Shown: positions 18,545 through 45,046 of the stretch, piece after piece
Layout of the letters: the number at the start of each line of letters is the position of its first letter
Numbering within the stretch: the stretch's first letter is position 1
Assembly: GCA_944380725.1 (NCBI GenBank)
Contig: CALWIK010000002.1
Span: 62,001 to 126,000, forward strand
Origin: an uncultured Clostridia bacterium
GTDB lineage: Bacteria; Bacillota; Clostridia; Oscillospirales; Acutalibacteraceae
Length of the DNA stretch: 64,000 nucleotides
Direction: 5' to 3'
Notes under the pieces: generated by a model
Seen by the model: the letters and a program-made list of their open reading frames with translations, nothing else
Told to the model about the DNA's origin: nothing
The model's database searches: none
Program-made: the position numbers and the translations under genes

Positions 18545-18580
18545 AAAAAGAATCTCTATTTTTATGGGATTCTTTTTATT
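18545..18580 (+). terminator. Terminator of rnpB
   Basis: AAAAAGAATC (18545-18554) pairs with GATTCTTTTT (18568-18577), followed by ATTTTG. It begins four bases after the end of the RNase P RNA. Confidence 0.85.
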
Positions 18581-28872: not shown

Positions 28873-29535
28873 TTAAGATTTTTCAATTATTACATCACCA
28901 GATTTATATATGCTATTTGATTTTATAAATCCTCGAACTGAACTTAACGGATAAATAGTGCTATTTTTGCCAATAATCGTGCCTGGATTTAGAACTGTAT
29001 TGCAGCCAATTTCTGCAAAGTCTCCAACAATTGCTCCAAACTTTTTTAGTCCAGTATTAATTTTTTCTCCATTATACATTACACTAACAAGCCCTCTATC
29101 CGCTTTTACATTTGATGTAATACTTCCGGCTCCCATATGAGCTTTGTAACCTAGAACTGAATCTCCAATGTAATTATAGTGAGGCACCTGAACTCCATCG
29201 AACAAAATGGAATTCTTTATCTCTGTGGAATTACCTACTACAGCATTTTTGCCAATTACGGCATTACCTCTTATATAAGCGCAATGTCGAATTTCTGCTT
29301 TCTCGTCGATAATTAAAGGTCCATTTAAACAAGAAGTTTTACTTATCTTAGCGGATTTAGCTATCCATATATTTTCACTTATTTTTTCAAATCTTTCATG
29401 CTGCAAAGTCTTTCCAAGATTAATTATGAACCTTGATATCTCTGGGATAACATCCCAACACCAATTATTACTTAAAAATAAATCTTCCGCAATGGTATAC
29501 TCTAAACTTAAAATCTCATTTGTGTTTATTAACAT
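28873..29535 (-). CDS. Left-handed beta-helix (hexapeptide) acyl/nucleotidyl-transferase-like protein
   Basis: The 220-residue protein is mostly hexapeptide repeats (about residues 55-205): ISENIWIAKSAKISKTSCL, IRHCAYIRGNAVIGKNAVVG, YIGDSVLGYKAHMGAGSITS, NTVLNPGTIIGKNSTIYPLS. It resembles the C-terminal acetyltransferase half of GlmU and the stand-alone UDP-N-acetylglucosamine pyrophosphorylase-related proteins of Clostridia, but has no N-terminal nucleotidyltransferase domain. The YNGEKINTGLKKFGAIVGD segment carries the lysine-rich acceptor loop of GlmU. Probably an acetyltransferase for a sugar; the substrate is unknown. It is the only gene on its - strand unit, opposite the tRNA-Val promoter. 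Confidence 0.8.
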   Translation of the reverse strand: MLINTNEILSLEYTIAEDLFLSNNWCWDVIPEISRFIINLGKTLQHERFEKISENIWIAKSAKISKTSCLNGPLIIDEKAEIRHCAYIRGNAVIGKNAVVGNSTEIKNSILFDGVQVPHYNYIGDSVLGYKAHMGAGSITSNVKADRGLVSVMYNGEKINTGLKKFGAIVGDFAEIGCNTVLNPGTIIGKNSTIYPLSSVRGFIKSNSIYKSGDVIIEKS

Positions 29536-29616
29536 AATTTAAAAACTCTCCCTTTATTGTCACTGTATTCATTATATCATATCATTTAAAATTTTTACCA
29601 TTTTAAAACTTTACCG

Positions 29617-29645
29617 TTGAATTTTACGCAATTTCATAATATAAT
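29617..29645 (+). promoter_or_regulatory. Sigma-A promoter of the tRNA-Val gene
   Basis: TTGAAT (29617-29622), a 17-base spacer, TATAAT (29640-29645), 20 bases before the first tRNA base. Confidence 0.8.
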
Positions 29646-29665
29646 ATTTAATAACAATATATTCC

Positions 29666-29741
29666 GGACGTTTAGCTCAGCTGGTAGAGCATTCGCTTGA
29701 CGTGCGAAGGGTCAGCGGTTCGAGCCCGTTAACGTCCACCA
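29666..29741 (+). tRNA. tRNA-Val (anticodon GAC)
   Basis: A complete 76-base cloverleaf: acceptor GGACGTT/AACGTCC, D stem GCTC/GAGC, anticodon stem TTCGC/GCGAA with loop TTGACGT giving anticodon GAC, T stem AGCGG/CCGTT with loop TTCGAGC. The CCA end is encoded (29739-29741). It reads the valine codon GUC. It stands alone, and the accessory region (RiPP cassette, then phage operon) begins right after it. Confidence 0.96.
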
Positions 29742-29826
29742 AAAATATCAAAACAGTAATTTTCATTTAAATTAGTACGATAATGAAAATTTTATCATGC
29801 TTTTTCAAAACAATTTACCGACGAAA

Positions 29827-29860
29827 TTCGACAAAAAATATTAATAAAATTTTTTATATT
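29827..29860 (+). promoter_or_regulatory. Candidate Spo0A box and -10 in front of the RiPP precursor
   Basis: TTCGACA (29827-29833) is an exact Spo0A box (reverse of TGTCGAA). A one-mismatch copy CGACGAA lies just before it on the other orientation (29820-29826). A -10-like TATATT (29855-29860) follows at a distance that puts the box next to a poor -35, the usual layout of Spo0A-activated promoters. The predicted start would be about 45 bases before the precursor ATG. Seven-base matches occur by chance, so this is only a proposal. Confidence 0.4.
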
Positions 29861-29913
29861 TAAAGAAAAAATAAAAATCGTTAAACTTTGCAAAAGATTC
29901 GGAGGAAATAATT

Positions 29914-30117
29914 ATGAAAAAGAAAGTTTTTATGAACGAAGATGAAACTTTGGAAAATTACAAAAAATTTTTCGAAGATCCTCAAATATCTAGCGCAGAA
30001 TTTTTTGTTTGTTATGTGCCTGCTGCATCCTCTGCTGCGCCAATGGCGGCTTCTCTTATTGCATCTTGTTTGGCTCCGGCAGTTGCAGTTGTTGCTCCCG
30101 CTGCTGTGGGTGCTTAA
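29914..30117 (+). CDS. RiPP precursor peptide, Ala-rich two-cysteine core
   Basis: The 67-residue peptide has a strong CGGAGGAA ribosome site. Residues 1-29 are a charged leader (KKKVFMNEDETLENYKKFF, then EDPQISSAE). Residues 30-67 are the probable core: FFVCYVP, then a run of Ala, Val, Pro and Ser with only two cysteines (Cys33 and Cys52) and no charged residue after Glu29, ending in VGA. No double glycine. A radical SAM enzyme with an RRE-like domain and a TldD/TldE pair follow directly, so this is the natural substrate candidate. The core length and hydrophobicity recall sactipeptides such as subtilosin and thuricins, which have more cysteines. I do not recognise a described family. The leader/core boundary is inferred. 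Confidence 0.85.
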   Translation: MKKKVFMNEDETLENYKKFFEDPQISSAEFFVCYVPAASSAAPMAASLIASCLAPAVAVVAPAAVGA

Positions 30118-30132
30118 TTTTATGTTTTGTTG

Positions 30133-30151
30133 CTTATAATTTTGGTATAAG
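30133..30151 (+). promoter_or_regulatory. Hairpin between precursor and radical SAM genes
   Basis: CTTATA (30133-30138) and TATAAG (30146-30151) form a small stem without a T tail, in the 126-base gap between the two genes. It might lower read-through or protect the precursor message so that the precursor is made in excess; this is only an inference. Confidence 0.3.
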
Positions 30152-30243
30152 TAATATGTTCATTTACTTTTTTATAATTAATTGACTCTTCAATGCACTA
30201 ATTAATAACTATGTTTTTATTCCCATGTCTTTGGAGCTTAAAA

Positions 30244-31545
30244 ATGTATCCTAAGTTAAAAAAAAATTTCTTTTTAAAAATAAAACCAGATAAATTTGAG
30301 CTTTGTAATCCTAATATTTTGCCTTTTGCTAACTTAAGTATAAACGAAACTGCTTTCGATATTTTTTCGTTATGTGATGGAAACACGGATGTAGACCATA
30401 TCGTTAAAAGTTTATTATTAAAGTATAAAATTTCTCATAAAGAATTAAAAATTAAGGTTGATGATTTTTTAGCTAATGCTTTGCAAAAAGATATAACTGT
30501 ATTTGATGAAAAAGCTTCGATAATACCCTACGATTTCATAAAAGGAAGCAATAAAATTTACTATCCAGATATTATATCTTGGGAGATAACAGATTATTGT
30601 CCCCTGAACTGTCTACATTGTTATTTGGATAAAAAAAATAGTAAATTCATTGCTTTGAATGAAATAGACAAAATTTTATCAATAATACCTAAATGCGGCC
30701 TTCGCTCTATACAAATAACTGGAGGCGAACCTCTTTTGCACCCAAACTTAGGGTATATTTTGAATAAACTGTCCGATTTAAAAATTCCTGTTATTTTGCT
30801 TACAAGTGGATTTAAATATAACTTTAAAACTTTTGAAATTTTAAATATTTTTAAAAAAACAACAAACAGTTCTGTAAGAGTTAGCCTGGATGGCAACCAA
30901 AAAATACATAACGATATACGAAAAAATCCTCAAGCTTTTGAAAATACAATAGATTTTATCAAAATGTTAAACAAGCAGAATATCCCTTGCCAAGTCGCAA
31001 TAACTGCAATTAATCAAAGCCCTAGCGACATTGAAAACTTGGTTGAATTATTAAAATCTTTGGGAGTTTATTATGTAGAAATAGGCCTTTTGGTGAATGA
31101 AGGAAATGCAAGTAAAAATAAATTACCATCTCAATATAATAATAAAAAAATTTCTGAACTTCTATTTTATTTGGATAAAAAATATTCTGACGATAACTTT
31201 AAAATAAAAACTGTAGTCAAAAATAAAGATTATACCTGTGGAGCTGGGCTTCAGTTAATTCATATTACCACTAATTTAGATATTAAACCTTGTCCTGTTA
31301 TGGATTTTAAATTGGGCAACATTAATTTGAATTCTTTTGATGATATTATGAAAAAAAGCACTGAATTATTTAGCAAAATTAAAATTCCCAATAATTCAAC
31401 ATGCTGTGGGTGTGCATTTGAAGACGATTGCAATGGATGCATCGCGCAAGCTTTAAACAAGCATAAAAGACTTTTAAAAAATTGCAGTTGGTTTGAAAGT
31501 CAAAAAAATTATATTTTTAAAACTCGAGGACGTTATGTATTATAA
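30244..31545 (+). CDS. RRE-fused radical SAM/SPASM peptide maturase
   Basis: The 433-residue protein has three parts. Residues about 15-90 form a PqqD-like winged helix (LSINETAFDIFSLCDGN then VDHIVKSLL), the recognition element that binds RiPP leaders. Residues about 108-310 are the radical SAM barrel with C119, C123 and C126 (DYCPLNCLHCYLD) for the 4Fe-4S cluster, and SIQITGGEPLLHPN. The C-terminal SPASM region has Cys332, 350, 387, 388, 390, 396, 399 and 414, enough for two auxiliary clusters. Such enzymes make thioether (sactipeptide or ranthipeptide), C-C, or D-amino acid modifications. I start at ATG 30244, seven bases from TTGGAG. The ATG at 30211 has no ribosome site. It overlaps the next gene by 11 bases. 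Confidence 0.9.
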   Translation: MYPKLKKNFFLKIKPDKFELCNPNILPFANLSINETAFDIFSLCDGNTDVDHIVKSLLLKYKISHKELKIKVDDFLANALQKDITVFDEKASIIPYDFIKGSNKIYYPDIISWEITDYCPLNCLHCYLDKKNSKFIALNEIDKILSIIPKCGLRSIQITGGEPLLHPNLGYILNKLSDLKIPVILLTSGFKYNFKTFEILNIFKKTTNSSVRVSLDGNQKIHNDIRKNPQAFENTIDFIKMLNKQNIPCQVAITAINQSPSDIENLVELLKSLGVYYVEIGLLVNEGNASKNKLPSQYNNKKISELLFYLDKKYSDDNFKIKTVVKNKDYTCGAGLQLIHITTNLDIKPCPVMDFKLGNINLNSFDDIMKKSTELFSKIKIPNNSTCCGCAFEDDCNGCIAQALNKHKRLLKNCSWFESQKNYIFKTRGRYVL

Positions 31546-32710
31546 GCAGGATAATAATGATTTTATTATCAAATATACAAATGGAAAATTTAACTATGCT
31601 TTTGAAGCTTTAAGTGGCGAACAGGTTCAGTTAAAAAATGGAACCATAAAAATTAAAAGCTGTAAATCTAGTTTAATAAATAGCACAGAGCTTTTTATCT
31701 TAAATGATAATAGTATCTATAAACTTAAAATCTTTTTAGAGAACATATTTAAAAACTTTAAAAATTTAGGCATAATTTTTTCAGCATATTTAAAAATGCA
31801 CAACGAAATTATATTAATCGATAAAAAAAAAGATTATAGAGTATATGGATTTATAAAAATTATAATGAATTTGAATAATAAAAGTTTTTCAAGTGAATTT
31901 GCTGTTACACGTGATATATATCTTCTGTTTGATCAAATTTCCGCTTATATAGATTACTTTAAAAAAAACTATCAAAAAAATTTTTTATCAGATAAACCAT
32001 TTATGCTAACTAATTACCCAGTAATTTTGTCTGCACAAGCTGCAGGGTGTTTTATTCACGAGATAATTGGACACTTGCTTGAAGAAGATTTCTTTTGTTT
32101 TAATAAAAAGCTTTTTGAAAATTATGACATATCTAAAAAAATAGAAATAGTTGATGATATAACTGGTTTTGAACATCTTGTTGGTCTAAATAAATTCGAT
32201 GACAGAGGAACAAAAATAAAGCCTTTAAAATTAGTATCTGGCGGAAAAATAACTAACATTATGGCTATTGATAAAAAATCTAGCTTTGATAGTAAAATTT
32301 ATGGTTTTGCTCGATGCGAAAATTTTAAAACCATTTCTTTACCCAGAATGCGCTTTACAAAAATAAAATCGGTTGATGATTACGCTCAAAGTGATATTAT
32401 TAGCAAATATAAAAAAGCTTTATTTATATCTAAAATTAGCTCTGCTTATACCACTTTTAATTCGGATAAGTATGTTTTGTCCGGCGAAGGCTTTATAATA
32501 AAAAATGGAGAAATAAAAAATTTTGTAAGTGACCTCGTTATCAAAGGTAATGTATTAACCGATTTGAAATATTTGGATTTCATAGGTAATGATCCTCAAA
32601 TTACCGTTTCTTTTTGTGGGAAGTTAAATCAATTAGTCCGCGTAGGAGTTTTAGCTCCAACTATAAGTTTATCAAAGATTTCAATTTTGCAAGGAAGATT
32701 ACATGAATAA
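31535..32710 (+). CDS. TldD-like zinc metalloprotease of the RiPP cassette
   Basis: The 391-residue protein begins at ATG 31535, inside the end of the radical SAM gene, with GAGGA just upstream. It has the TldD signature HEIIGHLLEEDF (His175, Glu176, His180: HEXXXH), the middle YGFARCENFKTISLPRMRFT and the C-terminal FCGKLNQLVRVGV with Cys361, which corresponds to the third zinc ligand of E. coli TldD. The N-terminal part is weakly conserved. TldD acts with TldE as a pair that degrades unfolded peptides and removes leaders (microcin B17). Here it should mature the precursor. It is shorter than E. coli TldD (481) but the catalytic residues are intact. It overlaps the next gene by 8 bases. Confidence 0.88.
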   Translation: MYYKQDNNDFIIKYTNGKFNYAFEALSGEQVQLKNGTIKIKSCKSSLINSTELFILNDNSIYKLKIFLENIFKNFKNLGIIFSAYLKMHNEIILIDKKKDYRVYGFIKIIMNLNNKSFSSEFAVTRDIYLLFDQISAYIDYFKKNYQKNFLSDKPFMLTNYPVILSAQAAGCFIHEIIGHLLEEDFFCFNKKLFENYDISKKIEIVDDITGFEHLVGLNKFDDRGTKIKPLKLVSGGKITNIMAIDKKSSFDSKIYGFARCENFKTISLPRMRFTKIKSVDDYAQSDIISKYKKALFISKISSAYTTFNSDKYVLSGEGFIIKNGEIKNFVSDLVIKGNVLTDLKYLDFIGNDPQITVSFCGKLNQLVRVGVLAPTISLSKISILQGRLHE

Positions 32711-33944
32711 AATCAGCTTTATAGAAAATATTTTAGTTGAATATGGCATCTTTAATTATAAAATTATTAAAGAGAATTTTACAAAAGTTATATTTAGATT
32801 CAAATACATTCACACAAAAAAACTAGAAATTACAAATCTGACCAATATCTTTTTGAACTTTAAAGTCAATAATACCCCTATAGAATTAAAATTTTCTGAA
32901 AAGACTTCTTATAAAAGTATAAAAAAATTAATAGAAAAAACATTCTTTTTAATTAAACATAAAAATTCTATAAACCCCAAAAATAAAAGTCTTAAACGCA
33001 ATAAATCAAGCTTCAATGGTTCTAATTTTGTTCCGCCGCGCATATATATAATGAATTTCGAAAGTGATATTAATTATATATTAAAAAACTGTAAGATTAA
33101 ATTGAACGCTACTATAGAGATAAAAATCCTACAACAGCAGATAATTATAAACGGTAAGCGATTTCAGCAGCAAATTATTCATGTTGAATGTTTCTTTTAT
33201 AAAATTGATAACATACTTGAAAATTTTTTTATATCATTTTTTTCTCCATTAGAATATTCTATTTTATATCTATTGCAAAAAAAAATAAATTATAATAACA
33301 TAAATTGCTTTTATAAAAATTTGGACCTATCTAAACCAATACTATTTAAAAGTAGCGTTGTTGCAGAATTCTTTAAGCATTATATACTTGCGTTTTATGC
33401 CAACAACGTTTATTTTGAAAATAGCTTTATCAAAACTAAAGATATTAATAAGAAAATTTTTAATTTTAACTTCGATCTTGTTTCCCTTCCGTTTAATGGG
33501 ATAAAATATGATTCACAAGGCTTTAGAATAAAAAAAATTTATTTGATTAAAAAAAATTATTTAAAAAATTTAATATGTAATCAATATTTCTCTAATTTGT
33601 TAAATATTTTAAACTCTGGAAATGCCGATTTTTTAAATTGTGATTTTATTTCTCATCAACGCCTGGAAATTATTCCAAAAATGTCTATTTTAAAACCAAA
33701 TTATAATAGTCTTCCTGTTGTATACTCGTCAAAAATATCAGGGTTCGATATTAAAACAACTAAATTAATTGCAGAGATTCTGTTTTATTACAAAAAAAAA
33801 TTTTTCAAATCAAAAATTATTATAAACCTAAATTTATTGTTCGAAAAATCAATTTTTAGTCAGAGAAACTTCACAAACAACAATGTTATTTGTGGGGATA
33901 TGTTGGCAAATCTTAACTCTGATAGTTTTTATGATATAAAATAA
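32703..33944 (+). CDS. TldE (PmbA)-like partner of the TldD-like protease
   Basis: The 413-residue protein is very rich in Lys, Asn, Ile and Phe and diverged. TldE features can still be followed: SVVAEFFKHYILAFYANNVY, FENSFIKTKDINKKIFN, the LPFNGIKYDSQGFRIKK segment (normally the FDDEG turn), and LLNILNSGNADFL. No HEXXXH motif, as expected for TldE, which lacks the zinc site and completes the active cavity of TldD. Its start ATG overlaps the tldD-like stop, so the two are made together. It is the last gene of the cassette, 38 bases before a terminator. Identification by family architecture and position rather than strong motifs. Confidence 0.72.
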   Translation: MNKISFIENILVEYGIFNYKIIKENFTKVIFRFKYIHTKKLEITNLTNIFLNFKVNNTPIELKFSEKTSYKSIKKLIEKTFFLIKHKNSINPKNKSLKRNKSSFNGSNFVPPRIYIMNFESDINYILKNCKIKLNATIEIKILQQQIIINGKRFQQQIIHVECFFYKIDNILENFFISFFSPLEYSILYLLQKKINYNNINCFYKNLDLSKPILFKSSVVAEFFKHYILAFYANNVYFENSFIKTKDINKKIFNFNFDLVSLPFNGIKYDSQGFRIKKIYLIKKNYLKNLICNQYFSNLLNILNSGNADFLNCDFISHQRLEIIPKMSILKPNYNSLPVVYSSKISGFDIKTTKLIAEILFYYKKKFFKSKIIINLNLLFEKSIFSQRNFTNNNVICGDMLANLNSDSFYDIK

Positions 33945-33969
33945 ATTGGATATATTTTAAATATTTACA

Positions 33970-34003
33970 AAAATAAAAATACCCTACAATTTTGTAGGGC
34001 TTG
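33970..34003. terminator. Bidirectional terminator between RiPP cassette and phage operon
   Basis: CCCTACAA (33982-33989) pairs with TTGTAGGG (33992-33999). On the - strand the stem is followed by TATTTTTATTTTT, an excellent tail for the phage operon. On + the tail is CTTGTTTCT, weaker, for the cassette. Confidence 0.8.
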
Positions 34004-34006
34004 TTT

Positions 34007-34480
34007 CTATTTAAAAGCTATATAAAAATACTGTGCACCACTCTTATTTAAATTTATGAATCTACCATTGCTGGCTGAGGTACTTTGTGAAAGAGTAAGT
34101 GTATCTAAAAATAACGAGGCTCCAAGCGTGCCGCCACCACCATCTGCTGCAACCACTGCACTGTTGCAAATTGTATACCCGTTCGACGAATCATATTCTA
34201 CAAAGGGCGCGTTTCTTAAAAATACAAGTACACAACGTGGAAAAAAGCTAAGCGTATGGTCTTTGCTTGCCTCACCATTACCGGAAAGGACACCTATTGT
34301 AAATGGGTTTTCTAACAAAGCTTTCATTTCTTCAGTTAAATGTACTGTATCGTCATTTAAATGATTACTTATTACAGTGTCTAATATTGTATTGTCAGAT
34401 ACAAAATCTGAGCGTTTTGGTTTGTCTGTGCCTAACCAGCTATTTAATCCTAAATTGGTAGTTTTATTTTCTGTTGGCAT
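34007..34480 (-). CDS. Phage tail fibre-like protein (XkdV position)
   Basis: The 157-residue protein starts TTNLGLNSWLGTDKPKRSDF, the typical opening of short tail fibres of clostridial prophages, and continues with HLNDDTVHLTEEMK. The rest is a Gly/Ser/Thr-rich tip with GGGGTLGASLF. It is much shorter than the XkdV fibre of PBSX. It is the last gene of the - strand structural operon. The start has AGGAGGAT at the right distance. Receptor-binding role inferred from position. Confidence 0.8.
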   Translation of the reverse strand: MPTENKTTNLGLNSWLGTDKPKRSDFVSDNTILDTVISNHLNDDTVHLTEEMKALLENPFTIGVLSGNGEASKDHTLSFFPRCVLVFLRNAPFVEYDSSNGYTICNSAVVAADGGGGTLGASLFLDTLTLSQSTSASNGRFINLNKSGAQYFYIAFK

Positions 34481-34491
34481 ATTTTATCCTC

Positions 34492-35064
34492 CTATATTTT
34501 TTCATAATTGTCTATTTCGTCCCAAGTTAAATCCTCTACATCAAGTTCATCAAAAGTTTTATTTTTACTGTCAATTGTATCCCAGTTAAGATTGCTAAAA
34601 TCGAATATGCATTCAAGATGTGCTGGTAAAAACTCTTCGACCATGCTTTTTATGGCCTCTTTATCAGATGAGCTATCAGCTAGCTCAAAACAATTAATAT
34701 ATATAGTGCTTTGGCTTGGATTTTCAATTATATAGCCTGTTATCCCGCCTATCTCCATAGCTTTTTTTATACTGGTTTTGTTAAAATCATTTGGAGTAAT
34801 TGCTGTTCTATATAAAAGTATTTTTCTTCTTTCCTGGATAATTTTTTCATTTTGTTCTGTTGTAAAAATTAATTCTCTCATACTCAATCCATAGCTCTCT
34901 GCTGTTGAGATGAATCTTTCTCTTTCTATTTCAGAAAGATACGAAGATATCTCATCAAGAACCATAGCATAGGCTGAAAGTTCTGCGTTGATTAACGTAT
35001 TGTCGTTAAGATTATAAAAACCTAAAGGTCTAAGAGTTTGCTTCATAGAATTTAGCGCACTCAT
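34492..35064 (-). CDS. Phage tail protein, DUF2313 / YmfQ-XkdU family
   Basis: The 190-residue protein has LRPLGFYNLNDNTLINAELS followed by YLSEIERERFISTAESYGLS and REL, the pattern of the YmfQ/XkdU family that sits between baseplate J and the tail fibre in PBSX-like and Mu-like tails. The C-terminal half has LEVDE-like repeats (TFDELDVEDLTWDEIDNYE). Probably part of the baseplate rim that attaches the fibre. Confidence 0.85.
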   Translation of the reverse strand: MSALNSMKQTLRPLGFYNLNDNTLINAELSAYAMVLDEISSYLSEIERERFISTAESYGLSMRELIFTTEQNEKIIQERRKILLYRTAITPNDFNKTSIKKAMEIGGITGYIIENPSQSTIYINCFELADSSSDKEAIKSMVEEFLPAHLECIFDFSNLNWDTIDSKNKTFDELDVEDLTWDEIDNYEKI

Positions 35065-35074
35065 TTGGATATCA

Positions 35075-36136
35075 TCACCTTTCTGAGATCTGTACGGAAC
35101 CTTTTATTGCAAGTTGCTTTGAGGTGGTATATCTATCTGTACTAATACTTGATAAAATGTAATAATTTTCTACTCCCGGTACAGTATAAATTGCATTACC
35201 AAGAGCCGCTATAAGAAATGGTTCCCCTATTTTTAAAGTGTTAAAGTACTCTGTTATATTTGCTATACATTGTTCTTTTATCTCATCAAAGCTATATCCG
35301 GTTTTTACAGATACATCTACTCCAACTGCTATTTCTACTGTCTCTGCTTTATATACCTTAACATCTACGTTAAGTTCTCTTATTGCACTTATTTCTGTTT
35401 GTATCTCAGAAATAAGTGTATCACTTGGCACTCCACCTTTAGCCGCCACATAAATATCTACTGTACCTACTCCTCTAGCTTTGCCGACTACACTCGCTGA
35501 GTATATCCCATCATATTTTAAAACATGTGACTTATAAAATGCTGCATTTGTTCCATTAGAGATATTTTTATAGCTGTCTATCAATCGTTCTCTTAATTCT
35601 TCGTCGCTTTCTGCATCCATGCCACCAACAAACGCGGTCTCATTTATTACAGAAGTTATTCCTGCAGGTGGTGTTACCATGATTTTTACCGTGCCTATGC
35701 CTGTATTTTGTAATGCCCCACCCTCTTCTGACTCAGCTGCTACCGCTACGAAAAGAGCTCCTGCCTCTAAAATTGCGGATTCTGTCGTCTTTACTCTTAT
35801 TGTATTCATTCCACTAGTTGAGCAGATTGTTCCCAATGGAATTTCTAGATCGTAGTCGAGTGCTGAATCTCTCATAAATTTAAGTGTTCCTGTCGACTTA
35901 AGTGCTGGCTTTCTAGTTAATCCTCGTTCTAAAGCCAAATAATCTAGCTGTTGACCTTGAGCTGTTTGGGCAAACATCTGATTTTTGAGCCACTGAATAT
36001 TATTTTGTAAAGAAAATATTTCTCCTGCTAAAACTCTCATTCTTATGCCAACATCAGAATCATCATTTATATTTACTCCACTTAATTCTGTGAACTTATT
36101 TTTCATTCTTCTTAAAATATTCTCATAATTGTCCAT
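35075..36136 (-). CDS. Baseplate J/gp47-family protein (XkdT-like)
   Basis: The 353-residue protein is a baseplate wedge component of contractile tails. The N-terminal third has QLDYLALERGLTRKPAL and FMRDSALDYDLEIPLGTICS. The middle carries AFVGGMDAESDEELRERLID, the best marker of the gpJ/gp47 family, and the end has YFNTLKIGEPFLIAALGNAI. Intact and of normal length. It shares one base with the start region of the next upstream gene (36136). Confidence 0.92.
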   Translation of the reverse strand: MDNYENILRRMKNKFTELSGVNINDDSDVGIRMRVLAGEIFSLQNNIQWLKNQMFAQTAQGQQLDYLALERGLTRKPALKSTGTLKFMRDSALDYDLEIPLGTICSTSGMNTIRVKTTESAILEAGALFVAVAAESEEGGALQNTGIGTVKIMVTPPAGITSVINETAFVGGMDAESDEELRERLIDSYKNISNGTNAAFYKSHVLKYDGIYSASVVGKARGVGTVDIYVAAKGGVPSDTLISEIQTEISAIRELNVDVKVYKAETVEIAVGVDVSVKTGYSFDEIKEQCIANITEYFNTLKIGEPFLIAALGNAIYTVPGVENYYILSSISTDRYTTSKQLAIKGSVQISER

Positions 36137-36483
36137 TATATTGTTATCACCACGTCTTTCTTTGTATCGTTTATTGATAGCATCACAGTCAAATCTAGAT
36201 TTTCTCCTTCATTTGTTAGCGTAGTGTATACGTTATCAACTATTACTTCAGTAACATCTGCTAGAGCTTCTCTAATCATTGATAATGCTCGATTTTTTAT
36301 ATTTATATCTGTTGGCTTTAAAGTATAAAGACGGCTGCCAAGTGAAGTGTCATATACAAAGCTACCCTGCTTTACGGTTAAGCGTATTAGCACTCTCTGT
36401 AAAAGTTCATCATAGCCCGATAATTCTATAAGATATCCTTTTGAATCACAAATAAAATCTCCACTATTAATCGCTGTATCCAA
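36136..36483 (-). CDS. Phage baseplate wedge protein (gp25/gp46-like)
   Basis: The 115-residue protein has GSFVYDTSLGSRLYTLKP and a C-terminal beta-rich half (LDLTVMLSINDTKKDVVITI). It lies directly before gpJ, the position of GPW/gp25 or Mu gp46-like wedge proteins (XkdS position in PBSX). The stop overlaps the gpJ start. Family assignment is from pattern and order. Confidence 0.78.
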   Translation of the reverse strand: MDTAINSGDFICDSKGYLIELSGYDELLQRVLIRLTVKQGSFVYDTSLGSRLYTLKPTDINIKNRALSMIREALADVTEVIVDNVYTTLTNEGENLDLTVMLSINDTKKDVVITI

Positions 36484-36493
36484 AATATCACCT

Positions 36494-36829
36494 CTACTCT
36501 AAAACTTTGCCATTTATCAAAACTTGACCGTTGTTTTTTAATACGATACTTGCTCCTCCGTTTGAATATAGCATCAACTCTCCAGGTTCTAAATCGGATG
36601 CTTGGTTTAATACGCCTGTATAGATAAACCCTTGTTCTGTTGGCGTGACTACGGCTTTTGCACCTGTTGGCGGAACGGATATTACTCCAAAAGGTGCTGA
36701 ACCTTTTATTTCTCTATGCTCTTGGCTTGTTTGTACCGTTATTGTGTTGTCTTGCGTTGAGGTCACCTCACCTATTTGTGTGCTTTTTATTAATTTGCAT
36801 GCATTGCTTATCTGTTTTGAAAGCCACAT
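36494..36829 (-). CDS. Short baseplate spike/assembly protein (gpV/gp45-like)
   Basis: The 111-residue protein has an OB-like middle (GEVTSTQDNTITVQTS, PPTGAKAVVTP) and a C-terminal GELMLYSNGGASIVLKNNGQ segment, which reads like the beta-helical tip of gpV/gp45-type spikes. It is very short for a spike; the PBSX gene in this place (xkdR) has a small product too. Probably the needle that pierces the membrane, but its short length leaves doubt. Confidence 0.68.
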   Translation of the reverse strand: MWLSKQISNACKLIKSTQIGEVTSTQDNTITVQTSQEHREIKGSAPFGVISVPPTGAKAVVTPTEQGFIYTGVLNQASDLEPGELMLYSNGGASIVLKNNGQVLINGKVLE

Positions 36830-36832
36830 GTT

Positions 36833-37780
36833 TTATCCCTCCAATAGCGTGAATGTTGTAAATTCTCCATTCTGGTTTAAAATATAGTCTATCTCATAAA
36901 TTTGCAAATTTTTTATGCTGCCCAATGTATAATCATTTATCTCACATTTATTCCCAAGCTGTGCGTAAACCGCTCCAGGACATTTTATTATAATCTCGTT
37001 AAACTTTTCTTTTGATTCATAAATCATCTGTTCTGCTGTGCTCACGGATACCGCCTTAGATGTTTCAGTATCTTCTGACATACTTATAAACCTTCTGCGG
37101 TGAATTCCTTTGTTTATTAATTCTTGATCTTTAACTTTGTCCACATAAATAGCCGCATAAGGAGCACATACTGTAATCTCAGAGATTAATTTATAACGAT
37201 TATATCTTTGATTTATCGAGTTATAATTAATTCCATCATTCGTATTCGAAAATAATATCGATTCTAACTCGGATCTTCCTGATACATCAATAACTCCTGA
37301 TGTACTTACAAGTGGAAATGTTTTTAAGCATAACCTGCAAAATTCTTCTAGTACATCCCACTCACTCATGCCTTTTTCAACTTCAAGTGTAACATTAAAA
37401 ATAGATTTATCACCAATTATTGAAGTGAATCCATATGGTTCGACATGTCTTTTAAAAATAATATCAAGAGACGGTCGTTTATAAATTTGTGGACTAGCTT
37501 CATTATCAATTAAGTATGCTATGTTACTTCTAGATTTAATCGTTAAAAAGAAACCATTTTTACTTGCTTCAAATTGTTGCTCATCTATAATGCCAGAAAA
37601 AAAAAGTTGTTTTTCATCTGTGTAAACTGCTAGTTTTTTATATTCAGAATGTTTTTGGGAACTAAAAAAAACTGCAGTCAAACTATCTGCAGGCGCCTCT
37701 TGAGATCTATTTATTTGAACACTATAAACATCACCTAAATCTATTTCTTCATCTGATATCGTTGTTGCAAAGTATTTCAT
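36833..37780 (-). CDS. Baseplate hub protein (gpD/XkdQ-like)
   Basis: The 315-residue protein starts MKYFATTISDEEIDLGDVYS and shows the repeated beta-barrel layout of gpD/gp27 hubs: QLFFSGIIDEQQFEASKNGF, KRPSLDIIFKRHVEPYGF, and TLEVEKGMSEWDVLEEFCRL, the most characteristic stretch of XkdQ proteins. It forms the ring at the tail tip onto which the spike is fitted. The upstream gene ends in an ATGA overlap with it (37777-37780). Confidence 0.85.
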   Translation of the reverse strand: MKYFATTISDEEIDLGDVYSVQINRSQEAPADSLTAVFFSSQKHSEYKKLAVYTDEKQLFFSGIIDEQQFEASKNGFFLTIKSRSNIAYLIDNEASPQIYKRPSLDIIFKRHVEPYGFTSIIGDKSIFNVTLEVEKGMSEWDVLEEFCRLCLKTFPLVSTSGVIDVSGRSELESILFSNTNDGINYNSINQRYNRYKLISEITVCAPYAAIYVDKVKDQELINKGIHRRRFISMSEDTETSKAVSVSTAEQMIYESKEKFNEIIIKCPGAVYAQLGNKCEINDYTLGSIKNLQIYEIDYILNQNGEFTTFTLLEG

Positions 37781-38301
37781 CTTAATCGCAACCTCTCACC
37801 TACTTTTAGTTGATTCGGGTTTTTTATATTAGTATTTAGCATTAATAAGGTTTCTATTGGAATATTTAGCTCAGATGCTATGCTCCAAAGAGTATCTCCG
37901 ACCAAAACAGTATAATAATCTTCATACAAAATTGAATTAATTTCTTCTTGCGCTAAATCTTCCCAAAACTCAAAACTATAATTTAAAAATTCTGATGTGG
38001 ATGTTTCAATCAACTCCAACCCCTTAAAAATAGCCAAAAATGAAGGCATGCCTGGCAAAGTTAAATACCCGCTGCCACCCCGTTTAAATAAGAAAAATAG
38101 TTCATCGAATTGATCTATGCAATCTTCTCCAAAAAACTGACCAGATCCTGAAACCACTCTTTTTTCTCTGCCATAATCCTGAAATATACTTCCTTTAAAC
38201 GGAATTATAACTTCTTTTAATGCCCTTTGAACTGATATTTCTATATTGGAAGGATTATATGGCCAAATATAATTTTTAAATTTCATAACATTTAAATTCA
38301 T
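37777..38301 (-). CDS. LysM-containing tail protein (XkdP-like)
   Basis: The 174-residue protein has an N-terminal domain with WPYNPSNIEISVQRALKEVI, SGSGQFFGEDCIDQFDELF, and a LysM domain at residues about 128-174 (YYTVLVGDTLWSIASELNIP, LKVGERLRLR). XkdP-type proteins attach the hub to the tape measure or tube and bind peptidoglycan. ATGA overlaps couple it to the genes on both sides. Confidence 0.85.
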   Translation of the reverse strand: MNLNVMKFKNYIWPYNPSNIEISVQRALKEVIIPFKGSIFQDYGREKRVVSGSGQFFGEDCIDQFDELFFLFKRGGSGYLTLPGMPSFLAIFKGLELIETSTSEFLNYSFEFWEDLAQEEINSILYEDYYTVLVGDTLWSIASELNIPIETLLMLNTNIKNPNQLKVGERLRLR

Positions 38302-38588
38302 AATGCGGCAGCTCCTGTCTGAATATCAAAATTTCTGTTGTAGCGCCGTGCATCAAATTCCATTTTGTCATAAATTTCTTTAATGTTGCTATCTTCTTGA
38401 TTGTAATCAGCAATAATATTTTGTACTATTGTTTTTTGGCTTTTTGTATCAAAAATAGTGGATGTGTTATTGGCACTTGGCCGAACATAGTTTTGGCTAA
38501 AATTTAAAATTCTTAAGTTGTTTTTGTATTGATTTGTTTCTAATGCTAACTGCATGTATTGATTTAATATTGCGTCAAATATCTGCAT
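38298..38588 (-). CDS. Unknown 96-residue protein in the tape-measure position
   Basis: This gene fills the slot between the tail chaperone and the LysM protein, where PBSX has the tape measure xkdO (more than 1300 residues). The product is only 96 residues: NQYMQLALETNQYKNNLRI, SQNYVRPSANNTSTIFD, IVQNIIADYNQEDSNIKEIY and a terminal RRYNRNFDIQTGAAAL. It has no transmembrane segment and no long coiled coil. It is tightly coupled: its ATG shares a base with the chaperone stop (TAATG) and its stop overlaps the next start (ATGA). It could be a rump left by a clean deletion of a tape measure, or an authentic small protein. I cannot tell which. Confidence 0.75.
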   Translation of the reverse strand: MQIFDAILNQYMQLALETNQYKNNLRILNFSQNYVRPSANNTSTIFDTKSQKTIVQNIIADYNQEDSNIKEIYDKMEFDARRYNRNFDIQTGAAAL

Positions 38589-39186
38589 TAATATTCACCA
38601 CACTTTCTTTTGTATTCTTCTGGATTAAAACTTTCGTTAAAAATATACTCTTCATAAGTCTTTTCTTTATCTAGCATCATATGTGCATAACAATATAAAT
38701 AATCATTTTCTGTCATATTTTTTACAACTGGATCATTTGGCAATTTATTGAATTTTTTTAATATTTCCCAACGTGCTCTTTCAAATTTAGAATTTAATTT
38801 TTTTTTACCTGCTCCAGTTCTTTTTCGTCAAGCAAGTCAAAACCAAGATAGTCCTTGCGAAGTTCAGAATATTCTTTTACTATACAGAGCATATCTTCTG
38901 CATTTAGGCTGTTCATTAAATCTTTTGTATTGTCAAAAAGAGGCAAAGAGTTATGATCTGTTAAACACATTACGCTCAAACAGGCGTTTTCGGCAACTTT
39001 TGTTGCTTGGCTTCTTTCAAACCCATCATTTATAAGTTTTAAAATTAAAGATTTAGACATTCTTTCACAAATAAGCATATCGTAAACCGAAAGTAAATTT
39101 ACGTATGCTTTTTTATTTTGAGGCAAATTTATTGCTTTTCTAATTTTGCCTTTATAAACTTCAAACGGTTTTATTTTGGGCTTCAT
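38588..39186 (-). CDS. Tail assembly chaperone GT form made by -1 frameshift
   Basis: The 130-residue upstream frame (38794-39186) stops two codons after a run of nine A (GTAAAAAAAAATTAA on the - strand). A ribosome that slips back one base on this run enters an open frame of 70 codons. It reads KLNSKFERARWEILKKFNKL and ends NPEEYKRKCGEY at 38588, giving a product of about 199 residues. This is the usual G/GT arrangement of tail assembly chaperones, in which the extension joins tube subunits to the tape measure. The extension has no own start codon or ribosome site. Confidence 0.75.
38794..39186 (-). CDS. Tail assembly chaperone, G form (XkdN-like)
   Basis: The 130-residue zero-frame product starts at ATG 39186 behind GGAGGTTT (a longer reading from 39276 runs through the tube gene). 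It is mostly helical: NLPQNKKAYVNLLSVYDML, SKSLILKLINDGFERSQATK, LFDNTKDLMNSLNAEDMLCI, as in XkdN. It helps load tube proteins during tail assembly. It overlaps the tube gene by 4 bases, and its end carries the slippery A9 run for the longer GT form. Confidence 0.82.
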   Translation of the reverse strand: MKPKIKPFEVYKGKIRKAINLPQNKKAYVNLLSVYDMLICERMSKSLILKLINDGFERSQATKVAENACLSVMCLTDHNSLPLFDNTKDLMNSLNAEDMLCIVKEYSELRKDYLGFDLLDEKELEQVKKN

Positions 39187-39572
39187 ATAGAAACCTCCAT
39201 TCTTTTGGCCGCAATCAAAGTTACATCTTCTAAAACAGCACCATTTATTGAAGCTGTTTCGTTTATTCCAGACCATTCACAACCAGAGTAAATTATTTTT
39301 TTATCGGGTTTCACTATTACCAAATTAAAATTGTGTAAATCATAAAAATTAATTCGGCTGTTCGCGCTATTATCGCAAGCGTATACCCTAGATAACTCTA
39401 CCGTATGGTGCACTCTACCAGAAGCAGTTCCAACCGGTTCTTTTTGGCCAAATGCCTCTATATATTGGCTTTCGCAGGTAGATCTCGCTTTGTAACTTTC
39501 TACTACGGCCAATTTTTTACCGTTTACCTCTATGTATATGTCTTTGCTGGTCGGAAAGGTTATGTTTAACAT
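39183..39572 (-). CDS. Phage tail tube protein (XkdM-like)
   Basis: The 129-residue protein from ATG 39572 (GAGGAGGTG upstream) has MLNITFPTSKDIYIEVNGKK, YKARSTCESQYIEAFGQKEP, and a beta-rich remainder with YELHNF-like and CEWSGINETASING stretches, the pattern of XkdM and related tube proteins of contractile tails. It follows the sheath gene directly, as in PBSX. Confidence 0.85.
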   Translation of the reverse strand: MLNITFPTSKDIYIEVNGKKLAVVESYKARSTCESQYIEAFGQKEPVGTASGRVHHTVELSRVYACDNSANSRINFYDLHNFNLVIVKPDKKIIYSGCEWSGINETASINGAVLEDVTLIAAKRMEVSI

Positions 39573-39583
39573 AAAGCACCTCC

Positions 39584-40630
39584 TCAAACATTTATATTAG
39601 CAGTTATATGAATCTGGTTTATTCCTTGTACAACTGTAAATTCAAGTTCTACAATACAAACACTTTGATCTTCACTTGATTGATATACATTTGGTACAGA
39701 ATAAGAATCTATGATTCCAGAATCTAAAAATTCTTGCAACTTAACCGTTACCTGACTATTTATCGCATTCCTTGTTGTAACATTATTTTTAGCTGCAGAA
39801 ATATTATTTTTAAGCGCGTCTCTAATAGATTTTATAACCTCATCAATAATTAAAATTGTGTTAACTTCTTTAAATATTTTGTCCGCTACGCCGTCAGTTG
39901 TTGTTTTAGAAGTTACGGCCCTTATTATTTCTAATTGACCAGCAACTACCTCAAAAGGAATAATTCCATTTGTTATATATTCATCCACCTCATCTTCAGT
40001 AAGGGTTTTATTAAGTTTAGAAAAACCTTTTATCTCTGCACCATTAAATGATTGCGATGGATCGGTGTATTTAGAAATTACAGTTGCTAAAGATGCTGCC
40101 AATATACACCCCGATAGAGTTTTTCCTTCTGAATTTAGTGGGTTTTGCGCTACTAAAAGGATTCTTTCGTTATTAAATTGTTTTGCCCATGTACTAAGCG
40201 AATCGTTGTTTTCTGACGAAGCTAAAATTCCTAGCCTTTCTTTTTTATTCTTTGATGAATTTAAAACGCTTTGCATTAGCAATTGTTGAATAGGACTATC
40301 TAAGCTATCACAAACAACTACACTTATTCCATCACTTTCTTCTATTATCTCAAAGGCTTTTTCATAATTACTTTCAGAACTTCCTGCAGAAACTGCTAAA
40401 ATATTATTCACTCCATTTTCTATAACAGCTTTGCATAACAAATACATTGTACTACTGCTCCCAAAAATTGTTTGAGCATCTGATAGGTTTTGTATATTAT
40501 AAATCTTGTCAGTATCTGCTTCAGATTTAGCCACAATTGCCACGCTTTTGCCTATTTTGCTTGAATATAGTATTTTTGATGTATTATAATCCGAATACAC
40601 ACCTGGTCTTTGTTTTGCTAATATTGTCAA
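39584..40630 (-). CDS. Tail sheath protein (XkdK-like)
   Basis: The 348-residue protein starts TILAKQRPGVYSDYNTSKIL, then VNNILAVSAGSSESNYEKAF, the contractile tail sheath opening. The C-terminal end has IDSYSVPNVYQSSEDQSVCI and VVQGINQIHITANINV, the domain that interlocks the sheath rings. It is full length for the short (about 350-440) sheaths of this group. Presence of a sheath shows a contractile (myo-type) tail. Confidence 0.92.
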   Translation of the reverse strand: MTILAKQRPGVYSDYNTSKILYSSKIGKSVAIVAKSEADTDKIYNIQNLSDAQTIFGSSSTMYLLCKAVIENGVNNILAVSAGSSESNYEKAFEIIEESDGISVVVCDSLDSPIQQLLMQSVLNSSKNKKERLGILASSENNDSLSTWAKQFNNERILLVAQNPLNSEGKTLSGCILAASLATVISKYTDPSQSFNGAEIKGFSKLNKTLTEDEVDEYITNGIIPFEVVAGQLEIIRAVTSKTTTDGVADKIFKEVNTILIIDEVIKSIRDALKNNISAAKNNVTTRNAINSQVTVKLQEFLDSGIIDSYSVPNVYQSSEDQSVCIVELEFTVVQGINQIHITANINV

Positions 40631-40641
40631 AATATCACCCC

Positions 40642-41127
40642 TTAGCTCTTTTTCTCTATTTTAATATCACTTATATTAATCTCTTCTGTTGCGTATCCAA
40701 GATATGCACTAAGTTTTATACTACAGTTTAGTTCAAACGAAAAAACATCGGTATTATATTTTGTTTTATCGCATAAAATTTCTTCAATATTATAATTCTC
40801 TCTGTGACGCAAAAGTTCTTCATATATTTTAGAAAAGGTTTCATAACACTCTTTGCTTCCGTCTTTTCTAGGAGAAAAAATGCTCATCTCTATAATAATC
40901 TCTATTTTGTTTCCATACTGCTCTCCAGAAATATCTGTACCAAGAAACGAATTAAGTGCTCCTTCTTTTATAGAAATTTTTTCTATGCCGAGTGAAACAT
41001 AATTACTTTTTATTGGATTTGGAACTCTTTCTTCGTTGTCTAAACTAATAAACTTTATTCCAGACAATTCAGCACTTTGTGAAAGATCCAATTTAATTTT
41101 GTCAACTATTTGATTAAATGCACTCAT
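40642..41127 (-). CDS. Tail completion/terminator protein (XkdJ position)
   Basis: The 161-residue protein from ATG 41127 (TGGAGGAC upstream) has SAFNQIVDKIKLDLSQSAEL and IIIEMSIFSPRKDGSKECYE and FSKIYEELLRHR, a mixed alpha/beta layout typical of tail terminators. It lies between a head-tail connector and the sheath. The assignment rests on position and fold pattern; no decisive motif is visible. Confidence 0.65.
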   Translation of the reverse strand: MSAFNQIVDKIKLDLSQSAELSGIKFISLDNEERVPNPIKSNYVSLGIEKISIKEGALNSFLGTDISGEQYGNKIEIIIEMSIFSPRKDGSKECYETFSKIYEELLRHRENYNIEEILCDKTKYNTDVFSFELNCSIKLSAYLGYATEEINISDIKIEKKS

Positions 41128-41471
41128 AAATCTTCGTCCTCCACAAAAATTTGAACTATTGCCCATATGTATAAAATATTTTCTCCCAAATAAACCGCTT
41201 GGGCTCTTTTTACTACGTAACTTTCATCAAGCGTATCTATTTTTGTGTTAAATGGATATAAATCTAGTCTAGTATTTTTATCTCCGATATATAGATAATT
41301 TTTGCCGTTTAAGTATCCTATATCTAAGCACTTGCCTCCCATATATGTCTGATCTTTGTATCTTAAAGGCTGAATAAAAGCTTTGGTATTAATCTTACTG
41401 CCATCGCTTAAGTTTATAGTAATAGTTCTACCGAACCTATCTATAAGGCTAGAAACACATTCGCTAAACAT
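41124..41471 (-). CDS. Head-tail joining protein (XkdH/I-like)
   Basis: The 115-residue protein with SLIDRFGRTITINLSDGSKI and an all-beta remainder (KAFIQPLRYKDQTYMGG, YLYIGDKNTRLDLYPFN) fits the small beta-barrel head-closure or joining proteins of this operon type. It overlaps the next gene by 4 bases. Function inferred mainly from order. Confidence 0.65.
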   Translation of the reverse strand: MFSECVSSLIDRFGRTITINLSDGSKINTKAFIQPLRYKDQTYMGGKCLDIGYLNGKNYLYIGDKNTRLDLYPFNTKIDTLDESYVVKRAQAVYLGENILYIWAIVQIFVEDEDL

Positions 41472-41472
41472 T

Positions 41473-41838
41473 TTACTTCACCTGCCAAAAAACAAAATCT
41501 TCGTCCTTTAATAAATCGGATATTTTTGCTTTTTCACTTTGCCAGATTTCATGTGCAACATCTAGTGCTTTACTTATGTTCTCTTTTACAGTTATATCTC
41601 CAGCAGAAAAAGACTCTACAGATTCTCTCAGCGCCTTAATTTGCATATATTTATAGAGACTTAAAGCTCCAGCGGCGGCTATTAGCCGCTCACTGTGTAA
41701 AGTCAAATCTACATCTGGTAAAAGTTTTGAAATTATCATTTCTTTTGCATCACTGCAAATGTATGTAAAATTATTTGCTTCTTCTCTGCTCAAGCTAGCC
41801 AATAAAGCAAATCGTTCTATAATATTTTCTAGATCCAA
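41473..41838 (-). CDS. Head-tail connector protein (gp6-like)
   Basis: The 121-residue, all-helical protein (ENIIERFALLASLSREEAN, LLPDVDLTLHSERLIAAAGA, FSAGDITVKENISKALDVA) resembles small gp6/gp15-type adaptors that bind below the portal. It lies just after the capsid gene. Family assignment from architecture and position. Confidence 0.65.
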   Translation of the reverse strand: MDLENIIERFALLASLSREEANNFTYICSDAKEMIISKLLPDVDLTLHSERLIAAAGALSLYKYMQIKALRESVESFSAGDITVKENISKALDVAHEIWQSEKAKISDLLKDEDFVFWQVK

Positions 41839-41857
41839 AACTTATCCTCCTTCCAAA

Positions 41858-42874
41858 TTAATCAGATATTGTGTTTGGAGTATAAGTCATTTTTTTAGCT
41901 GCGTCTGCAAAAATTTTTGCAAAACCTACTGTTGCACTAATTGAGGCTCTTTCTAACTGTTTGTCAATTAATTTGTCGTAATCTACAGTTAAGTCGCCTA
42001 CTTTTACCATCTCCAAAGAGTAGTTCTTATCGAACCCAACAATAGTGTTATCTGCAACTTTATCAACACGATGCAATGTTGCACCAAGCGGTGTAACAAC
42101 TTGGGTAGCATCTTTAAAGCTTAAAAGAGTCTGTACATCTTGTAGCTCAGTTAGTGCAAGCAGATCTTGCATTGTTGCAGTATTTGCTAAAATTGTGTTC
42201 AACTCGTATCCAGATAAATTTGCCCATAGTTCAATCAAATCTGCATAAGCTATTCCACTTGTGCTAACAGGAGTAACTGCTGCTGCAGCGCTGCCGGATT
42301 CATCTCCATTTATCAAAACATCTACTGCATCTCCAAGCTGTGCATTTGCTATATCGGAACCTATTTTTCTAAGCATAACCGCAAAAAGATCTAGACGTTT
42401 GTGTTTTAAAGCCTCATAGGAAGTAGCAATAACTCTACCGCGCTTTTTCATTGACACTAGGTTCGATTTTGTTTGAATTACAGTTTCTGGTATCTCACTT
42501 GTTTCGTTTACAGAGTTGCCTGACGTACCCTCTGTTGTAGATTTTATAGTTCTATAGTCGTCATTTTCTACATTAGTTATGGTTGCAACTATTGAGGCTA
42601 ATGTGTTAGAGCTCTCCATTCCTTGCAAAACGCTCCGTTTTACAAATTCAGGAAATAGCACCGCAGAATCCGTAGTTTTAAAAAAACTCTCAATAACGTC
42701 AGAGTTTTGTCCTTTAACTCTAATATTAAATCTTTTTAGCTGGCGCTCATAAGCATCTAGCCCAGCTAAGTCTGTTCCATCATAATTTTCTGATGGATCT
42801 ATAGATTCTAATGCCTTTGTAAGTCCAAAATTATACATACCCTTTTCAAGTTTTATCGAATCATAAAAAGCCAT
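41858..42874 (-). CDS. Major capsid protein (XkdG-like, HK97 fold)
   Basis: The 338-residue protein contains an N-terminal arm (TKALESIDPSENYDGTDLA), then VKRSVLQGMESSNTLASIVA, TSEIPETVIQTKSNLVSMKK and VIATSYEALKHKRLDLFAVM, the usual pattern of HK97-type capsid proteins in PBSX-like operons. The end has VGDLTVDYDKLIDKQLERAS. It is preceded by the protease/scaffold gene. The arm may be removed during maturation. Confidence 0.88.
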   Translation of the reverse strand: MAFYDSIKLEKGMYNFGLTKALESIDPSENYDGTDLAGLDAYERQLKRFNIRVKGQNSDVIESFFKTTDSAVLFPEFVKRSVLQGMESSNTLASIVATITNVENDDYRTIKSTTEGTSGNSVNETSEIPETVIQTKSNLVSMKKRGRVIATSYEALKHKRLDLFAVMLRKIGSDIANAQLGDAVDVLINGDESGSAAAAVTPVSTSGIAYADLIELWANLSGYELNTILANTATMQDLLALTELQDVQTLLSFKDATQVVTPLGATLHRVDKVADNTIVGFDKNYSLEMVKVGDLTVDYDKLIDKQLERASISATVGFAKIFADAAKKMTYTPNTISD

Positions 42875-42893
42875 TTGTATTCCTCCATAAATT

Positions 42894-45028: not shown

Positions 45029-45046
45029 TTTATCACTCCTTTTAAA

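Follow-up and report, generated by a model that had tools for sequence, protein, structure and literature searches.

Introduction

Ranthipeptides and SCIFF peptides carry many cysteines with Asp or Glu acceptors, ribosomally synthesized and post-translationally modified peptides (RiPPs) of the NHLP/Nif11 or double-glycine type have a leader ending in Gly-Gly and an exporter with a C39 peptidase, and the pairing of a RiPP recognition element (RRE)-bearing radical S-adenosylmethionine (SAM) enzyme with a peptidase is the logic of pyrroloquinoline quinone (PQQ) and mycofactocin. Here we describe a four-gene cassette at 29914-33944 of a 64,000-nucleotide stretch of contig CALWIK010000002.1 (the window), from an uncultured Clostridia bacterium of the Acutalibacteraceae. 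Its closest described counterparts include subtilosin A of Bacillus subtilis with its enzyme AlbA, the sporulation killing factor (SKF) with its enzyme SkfB, and the TldD/TldE pair of Escherichia coli known from microcin B17.

Passages of PMC8172795 describe SKF as containing one Cys-to-Met thioether and one Cys-Cys disulfide. The metal site of E. coli TldD consists of His262, Glu263, His267 and Cys454, with Lys456, Glu270 and Asp272 as structural residues (excerpts of PMC5810440), and TldD/E is described as threading the leader and halting 13 residues before the first microcin B17 modification (excerpts of PMC10885120). In the biphenomycin/pbs systems, one RiPP cluster encodes both a radical SAM enzyme and a TldD-type protease; as set out in parts of PMC12257519 and PMC12707348, the radical SAM enzyme there is B12-dependent and forms a biaryl link, a multinuclear non-heme iron-dependent oxidative enzyme (MNIO) also occurs, and the protease acts with no TldE partner. 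Among the matches listed in a literature search that left most subscription journals outside, none joined a SPASM-type radical SAM peptide maturase to a TldD/TldE pair. The window cassette is most likely a new combination of known peptide-making parts, in which a short Ala-rich peptide is cross-linked and then trimmed.

Results

A conserved precursor gene heads a four-gene cassette

The cassette consists of four open reading frames (ORFs), all on the plus strand, in the order precursor (29914-30117, 67 aa), RRE-radical SAM/SPASM enzyme (30244-31545, 433 aa), TldD-like metalloprotease (31535-32710, 391 aa) and TldE/PmbA-like partner (32703-33944, 413 aa). It is flanked by a tRNA-Val gene (29666-29741) on one side and by a convergent cluster of phage-like tail genes on the other. 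An earlier note on this DNA had proposed these genes in this order, with a PqqD domain fused to the radical SAM enzyme, and the ORFs and their Pfam domains (PF05402 and PF04055 in the enzyme, PF19289 in the TldD/TldE-like pair) confirm it. Its description of the genes as overlapping holds for the enzyme genes (31535/31545 and 32703/32710) but not for the precursor gene, which is separated from the radical SAM gene by 126 nt. The radical SAM gene probably starts at ATG 30244 and not at 30211, because the ORF of a sister species opens at the same MYP and has two in-frame TGA codons just upstream of it. The TldD-like gene probably starts at ATG 31535.

The precursor contains two cysteines, Cys33 and Cys52, which are 19 residues apart, and no Gly-Gly, as had been noted. 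Conservation suggests a boundary between a leader-like part (residues 1-27, 29914-29994) and a core-like part (residues 28-67, 29995-30114) containing 15 Ala, 6 Val and 4 Pro. The core had been called charge-free, which is correct except for Glu29, the only charge after position 27.

A TldD query returned one relative in genome_contigs, CALWUI010000027.1 from an uncultured Clostridia bacterium; this is the same contig as G002:C27, and the independent evidence therefore comes from one sister species (L031). All four genes are present there in the same order and at the same site, with 318/426 residues identical in the radical SAM enzyme, 323/391 in the TldD-like protein and 296/413 in the TldE-like protein. 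With the leader/core boundary for codon counts set at the conserved AEFFVC, 37 of the 40 core residues are identical (9 synonymous and 3 replacement codon changes), as compared to 11 of 25 aligned leader residues (27 columns, 2 gaps; 1 synonymous and 14 replacement changes), and both cysteines are retained. When the 12 observed core changes were placed randomly in a neutral simulation, at least 37 identities were obtained in 0.23% of 20,000 trials; the core is identical at 37/40 positions in the precursor frame and at 30/40 in each of the two others. The ratio of replacement to synonymous substitution rates (dN/dS) is 0.35 (NG86) or 0.59 (YN00) for the whole precursor, and the values for the core alone (dN 0.036, dS 0.319) indicate purifying selection. 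The 30 nt before the start codon (29884-29913, plus strand), including a GGAGG ribosome-binding site, are also identical. Conservation of the small ORF is beyond chance and, on this comparison of sequences, the cassette and its precursor gene are real. A conserved core combined with a diverging leader is the pattern of a RiPP precursor, with the product under selection and the leader freer to change. The earlier note would have been refuted by a lack of precursor-like peptides in homologous loci, a test that it survived, the conserved sister precursor representing one independent locus.

Could the small ORF encode an unrelated hydrophobic membrane peptide, with the enzymes acting on something encoded elsewhere? 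The core has a mean Kyte-Doolittle hydropathy of 1.55 (best 19-residue window 2.08), and no known RRE-binding leader motif was identified in the precursor. However, in both species the ORF has kept its position a short way ahead of the enzyme gene, and four relatives of the enzyme carry small precursor-like ORFs at the same place (see below), making this explanation very improbable. A decaying cassette with no present function in a reduced genome would be in keeping with the low G+C content of the enzyme genes (22-28%, as compared to a mean of 32.2% for the 42 other window ORFs of at least 150 aa) and with a TldE-like gene that is divergent and fast (dN/dS 0.30 by NG86, 0.49 by YN00). Yet all frames are intact in both species, and the radical SAM, TldD and TldE genes have dN/dS values of 0.24, 0.19 and 0.30 (NG86) or 0.27, 0.13 and 0.49 (YN00), which leaves decay hardly credible. 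That the cassette makes a RiPP is very probable.

Base composition is split within the cassette (29914-33944): the precursor core is 52.5% G+C and the TldE-like gene 22.1%, the lowest of any gene measured, in a window of 31.6%. The sister species has a similar split (core 55.8%, TldE 22.9%). A candidate sigma-70 promoter was dropped, as its spacing was 21 and the consensus scan made no such call.

The radical SAM enzyme resembles sactisynthases

The enzyme matches PF05402 (PqqD/RRE, E 3.2e-8; 30337-30492), the Radical_SAM family PF04055 (E 1.6e-21) and the SPASM family PF13186, the last at 18.6 bits, below the 21.5 cut-off. A four-sequence alignment shows seven invariant cysteines in the SPASM region, a pattern characteristic of this domain. 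The best NCBIfam model is AlbA (113.1 bits, cut-off 850), matching residues 35-430 of a 444-aa version of the protein, RRE included; TIGR04053 scores 108.9 bits and the SkfB model TIGR04403 83.7 bits (cut-off 300). Of 69 families matched, 25 were listed; none of these reaches its curated cut-off, and the ranthipeptide enzyme PapB is absent from them. The nearest solved structure is that of SkfB, a sactisynthase (6efn, E 1.1e-16). At E 1e-24 the AlbA model matches 37 of 279 genomes of the phylum, none above the cut-off and with the window genome ranking second, and 2 of 14 control genomes, those of Bacillus subtilis and Thermotoga maritima, with one of the two above the cut-off.

Eighteen relative loci, picked from larger lists, were inspected (L088, L115-L118, L121-L125, L156-L161, L169 and L172), L123 and L125 by annotation alone. 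In four, a short Cys-bearing sactipeptide-like ORF lies 45-212 nt upstream: L121 (38 aa, four Cys), L122 (41 aa, five Cys), L169 (45 aa, six Cys) and L172 (40 aa, three Cys). The best matches to the window enzyme among the 14 loci of one search were L172, L121 and L122 (28, 27 and 28% identity), and the enzymes of L121 and L122 also score highest to AlbA. The surroundings of L122 hold a separately annotated 'putative sactipeptide bacteriocin'. NHLP/Nif11-like precursors were found at L088 and L115, a different 45-aa Cys-rich ORF at L161 and a 53-aa upstream ORF at L160, and no precursor-like ORF was noticed at the other ten. On Anaerococcus prevotii pAPRE01, an AlbA-like RRE-radical SAM enzyme (APRE_RS09345; 28% identity over 91% of the query) has a small precursor-like ORF of 41 aa upstream; that locus differs from the window cassette in its five clustered cysteines and adjoining ATP-binding cassette (ABC) transporter gene, and TldD/TldE are not among its 14 listed annotated features. 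The statement in the earlier note that the cassette matches no known product was too strong, since AlbA gives the best profile match to the enzyme and some AlbA-like relatives stand behind sactipeptide-like ORFs.

Several of these loci have features of their own. L121 (5833-7400 of MT836680.1), on a fecal contig filed as 'Bacteriophage sp.', encodes an AlbA-like enzyme, the four-Cys ORF and an ABC-transporter-like ORF; it is probably no phage, because it carries ORFs resembling mobilisation genes. L169 (G921:C1, 1172-4147) is an AlbA-like locus with a six-Cys precursor-like ORF and a radical SAM gene with one in-frame stop. L088 (G001:C28, 326-3357), from the third species of the window genus, is a different RiPP system, with several NHLP/Nif11-like precursors next to a radical SAM/SPASM gene; of these precursors, some have a terminal GG and one is very rich in Pro, Val and Ala. 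L115 (G035:C13, 4186-6197), from a 1.0-Mb genome of the same family, has a 161-aa Nif11-like precursor with Gly-Gly and an adjoining radical SAM gene of 494 aa; the alignment of the latter with the window enzyme extends over its RRE.

A tree was built from 22 rows hand-picked from fetched loci. Because of its in-frame stop, L169 was represented by a 375-aa ORF alone, and L173 and L174 were entered as fragments of 192 and 89 aa. After the sister species, the nearest row by path is L172.

A probably dedicated TldD/TldE-like pair

Both partners pass the 22-bit cut-off of PF19289, the TldD-like protein with 81.8 bits and the TldE-like protein with 40.1 bits, the latter as a partial match to residues 212-308. 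The TldD-like protein aligns with E. coli TldD (5nj5_A, E 8.5e-15), placing H175, E176 and H180 of its HExxxH motif (32057-32074) at the metal site, with C361 (32615-32617) as third metal ligand, aligned to the CGK that contains Cys454 (excerpts of PMC5810440). E183, D185 and K363 occupy the places of Glu270, Asp272 and Lys456, and all metal and structural residues are kept in the sister species. The TldE-like protein has neither an HExxxH motif nor an HE pair, and its match to the PmbA structure 5nj5_B is weak (E 0.21); an hhalign comparison of the TldE-like with the TldD-like pair, at two rows each, gave an uninformative probability of 0.2%. A metal-site TldD with a C-terminal Cys and a motif-less PF19289 partner is the arrangement of MEROPS M103 and of the microcin B17 TldD/TldE, from which the window pair differs in being encoded within the cassette, in being shorter and divergent (105.3 and 60.2 bits against NCBIfam TldD cut-offs of 635 and 513, and 18.3 against 438 for the TldE-like protein) and in its substrate, which would be a radical SAM product and not an azole peptide. 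No MNIO or B12-dependent radical SAM enzyme of the biphenomycin type was present among the proteins scanned, 28873-35064. The TldD-like protein is the only TldD match of the genome, and it is therefore probably dedicated to the cassette.

A peptidase next to an RRE-radical SAM enzyme would also be expected if the precursor were a scaffold for a small cofactor or modified amino acid, released by TldD/TldE, as this is the logic common to PQQ and mycofactocin. The ammosamide cluster, of the pearlin type, is also described as encoding a TldD/E homologue (excerpts of PMC10885120). Against a scaffold of this kind, it is the full 40-residue core that is conserved and not a short motif, the cassette has no further tailoring genes, and it was found in 2 of 398 genomes of the family; we regard the scaffold as quite improbable.

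Distribution, host lineage and neighborhood

Among 398 genomes of the family, the TldE-like protein turned up in two, both of which also have an ATP/ADP translocase; the TldD-like protein was found in two of the three genomes of the genus. All three genus genomes (1.1-1.4 Mb) encode this translocase (PF03219, E about 1e-135), which was also present in 1 of 10 others searched. Excerpts of PMC10579323 describe an Acutalibacteraceae 'small genome clade', mostly of 0.86-1.4 Mb and 30-39% G+C with an ATP/ADP translocase, proposed to be intracellular energy parasites. From the size and translocase of the genus genomes and the 31.6% G+C of the window, the bacterium probably belongs to this reduced and probably intracellular lineage. 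Both the probable lineage and the narrow distribution were overlooked in the earlier note.

An order-wide precursor search (394 genomes, with G002 outside the sample; E up to 0.5) gave nothing beyond its own locus better than E 0.008, which was taken as chance, and a plasmid search (E up to 1) gave no match, the BLAST low-complexity filter being on and possibly hiding an Ala-rich peptide. In the same order-wide sample, TldD gave 101 rows in 91 genomes; a tblastn search (E 0.01) of 17 flanks from the 100 non-own rows, each of about 6 kb unless the contig was too short, detected no relative of the radical SAM enzyme. The radical SAM alignment, searched at E 1e-20, returned 57 rows, and none of the 56 non-own rows had TldD on the same contig, within the limits set by fragmented contigs and E cut-offs. 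No match was found in viral_contigs for TldD, the radical SAM enzyme, the precursor or the TldD alignment. Three TldD records in the phage set, none covering 80% of the query, were a Salmonella genome contig and two unannotated fecal contigs with cellular-looking ORFs, whose examined stretches contained no radical SAM relative by tblastn.

A terminator-like hairpin (33982-33999; called on both strands in a consensus scan) separates the cassette from the convergent phage-like cluster (34007-46820). The cluster contains a large terminase, portal, contractile sheath and Mu Gp48-like gene (Pfam) and, by position, capsid-type genes; no integrase was noticed in it, and no long tape-measure ORF. Four tested genes are under purifying selection between the two species. 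At E 1e-20 the terminase matches 21 of 39 other genomes, 18 of these at 54-89% identity, with gene order shared by G001 and, in part, by three others. Judged from its sequence, the cluster looks like a vertically inherited gene-transfer-agent (GTA)-like element. Parts of PMC12946183 report GTA activity in Ruminococcaceae and Oscillospiraceae, and it may be new for a putative intracellular parasite to carry such an element. The idea that the cassette is a prophage moron was rejected: in the third species the phage-like cluster is present and its last gene is followed by other genes, with no cassette, and the tRNA-adjacent window gene lies elsewhere, again with no cassette. No second copy of the tRNA-Val 3' end was found in the window beyond one chance-quality 14-mer with 2 mismatches. 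Elsewhere in the window, a bacterial class A RNase P RNA lies at 18198-18546 (252.8 bits).

Discussion

The cassette is best read as encoding a sactipeptide-like RiPP that has few cysteines and a longer leader and is trimmed by a TldD/TldE pair of its own. An RRE-radical SAM/SPASM maturase next to a small precursor gene is the arrangement of sactipeptides, and the domain architecture and top NCBIfam match are those of AlbA. The leader is longer than that of subtilosin, and the logic of a hydrophobic product would be common to both. The differences from subtilosin A are the score (113 bits against 850), the two distant cysteines, the lack of exporter genes in the unit, and the TldD/TldE-like pair in place of AlbE/AlbF (named in a reference title in PMC10885120). 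SKF shares the nearest solved structure and the few-cysteine pattern, and the window core keeps one Met (Met44) as well; it differs in its model score (83.7 against 300), its other protease and its export and resistance genes, of which the window unit has none. Two cysteines and one acidic residue in the core do not fit ranthipeptides or SCIFF peptides, and a precursor with no GG in a unit with no exporter does not fit NHLP/Nif11 or double-glycine RiPPs.

Several observations weigh against this reading. The sole independent homologous locus is that of the sister species, and 14 of the 18 relatives lack the sactipeptide-like pattern, small ORFs being able to escape the ORF lists. Two lone cysteines are few for a sactipeptide-type core; the precursor-like ORFs of L121, L122 and L169 have four, five and six cysteines close together (that of L172 has three), a clustering that the window precursor does not show, and its leader is longer. 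The NirJ2 model, of a type with another radical SAM role, scores 110.5 bits on the enzyme, almost equal to AlbA, and the tree leaves the window pair unplaced on its own long branch, outside the 100/100 clade of L121, L122 and L169. The two AlphaFold models, with predicted local distance difference test values of 29 (TldE-like) and 45, are of too low quality for use. No exporter or immunity gene lies within the cassette, as the earlier note had stated; ABC exporters occur 18 kb off (52227-56329), with MsbA-type best matches under the cut-offs and no C39 match, most ORFs upstream of 28873 being unscanned. Finally, a TldD-type protease in radical SAM RiPP clusters is already published for biphenomycins (in the parts of the two papers cited above), which takes from the newness of the combination.

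Taking the unplaced tree position together with the AlbA and SkfB matches and the four sactipeptide-like relatives, the enzyme likely works like a sactisynthase, and its identity as an AlbA is not supported. A RiPP formed by other radical SAM chemistry (epimerisation, a C-C or C-O cross-link, or a thioether to a non-alpha carbon, with the cysteines free or in a disulfide) is a plausible rival, if somewhat less likely. It would agree with two cysteines placed so far apart, with an enzyme that sits on its own branch below every curated cut-off among the families listed, and with an Ala/Val-rich core, which would suit the formation of D-residues. On the other hand, the sister species retains both cysteines, the top profile is the thioether-forming AlbA, and PapB is missing from the families listed.

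In the sactipeptide-like mechanism, the RRE domain would bind the precursor leader, and the radical SAM enzyme would take hydrogen from acceptors in the hydrophobic Ala/Val/Pro core, joining Cys33 and/or Cys52 as thioethers, each such link costing 2 Da. TldD/TldE would then shave the leader from its N-terminus until the first cross-link halts this 'pencil sharpener', yielding a hydrophobic, perhaps membrane-active peptide. With the 13-residue halt described for microcin B17, a first link at Cys33 would put the start of the product near residue 20, about where conservation begins. That the enzyme modifies the window precursor is highly likely, that TldD/TldE removes the leader is likely, and a thioether at Cys is slightly favored; the complete sequence in a genome-reduced member of the Acutalibacteraceae, from leader binding through thioethers at Cys33 and/or Cys52 and TldD/TldE trimming to a hydrophobic peptide, is offered as a tentative joint statement.

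If this is right, the cassette would be a RiPP pathway that is minimal and encoded in full, with the modification determining where TldD/TldE stops, and the pencil-sharpener model could be tested on a radical SAM product; the precursor and enzymes are of a length that suits direct expression in a laboratory E. coli strain. It would also place a peptide natural product in a lineage thought to be energy parasites within gut protists, in which the effects of symbionts on hosts or rivals are poorly understood. More speculatively, and doubtfully, an obligately intracellular, ATP-importing relative of Clostridium may make a cross-linked hydrophobic peptide with a link pattern not seen before, built on two lone cysteines in an Ala/Val/Pro core, trimmed by its own TldD/TldE pair and acting inside the eukaryotic host cell on membranes or rival symbionts, in which case a RiPP would be a tool of intracellular parasitism.

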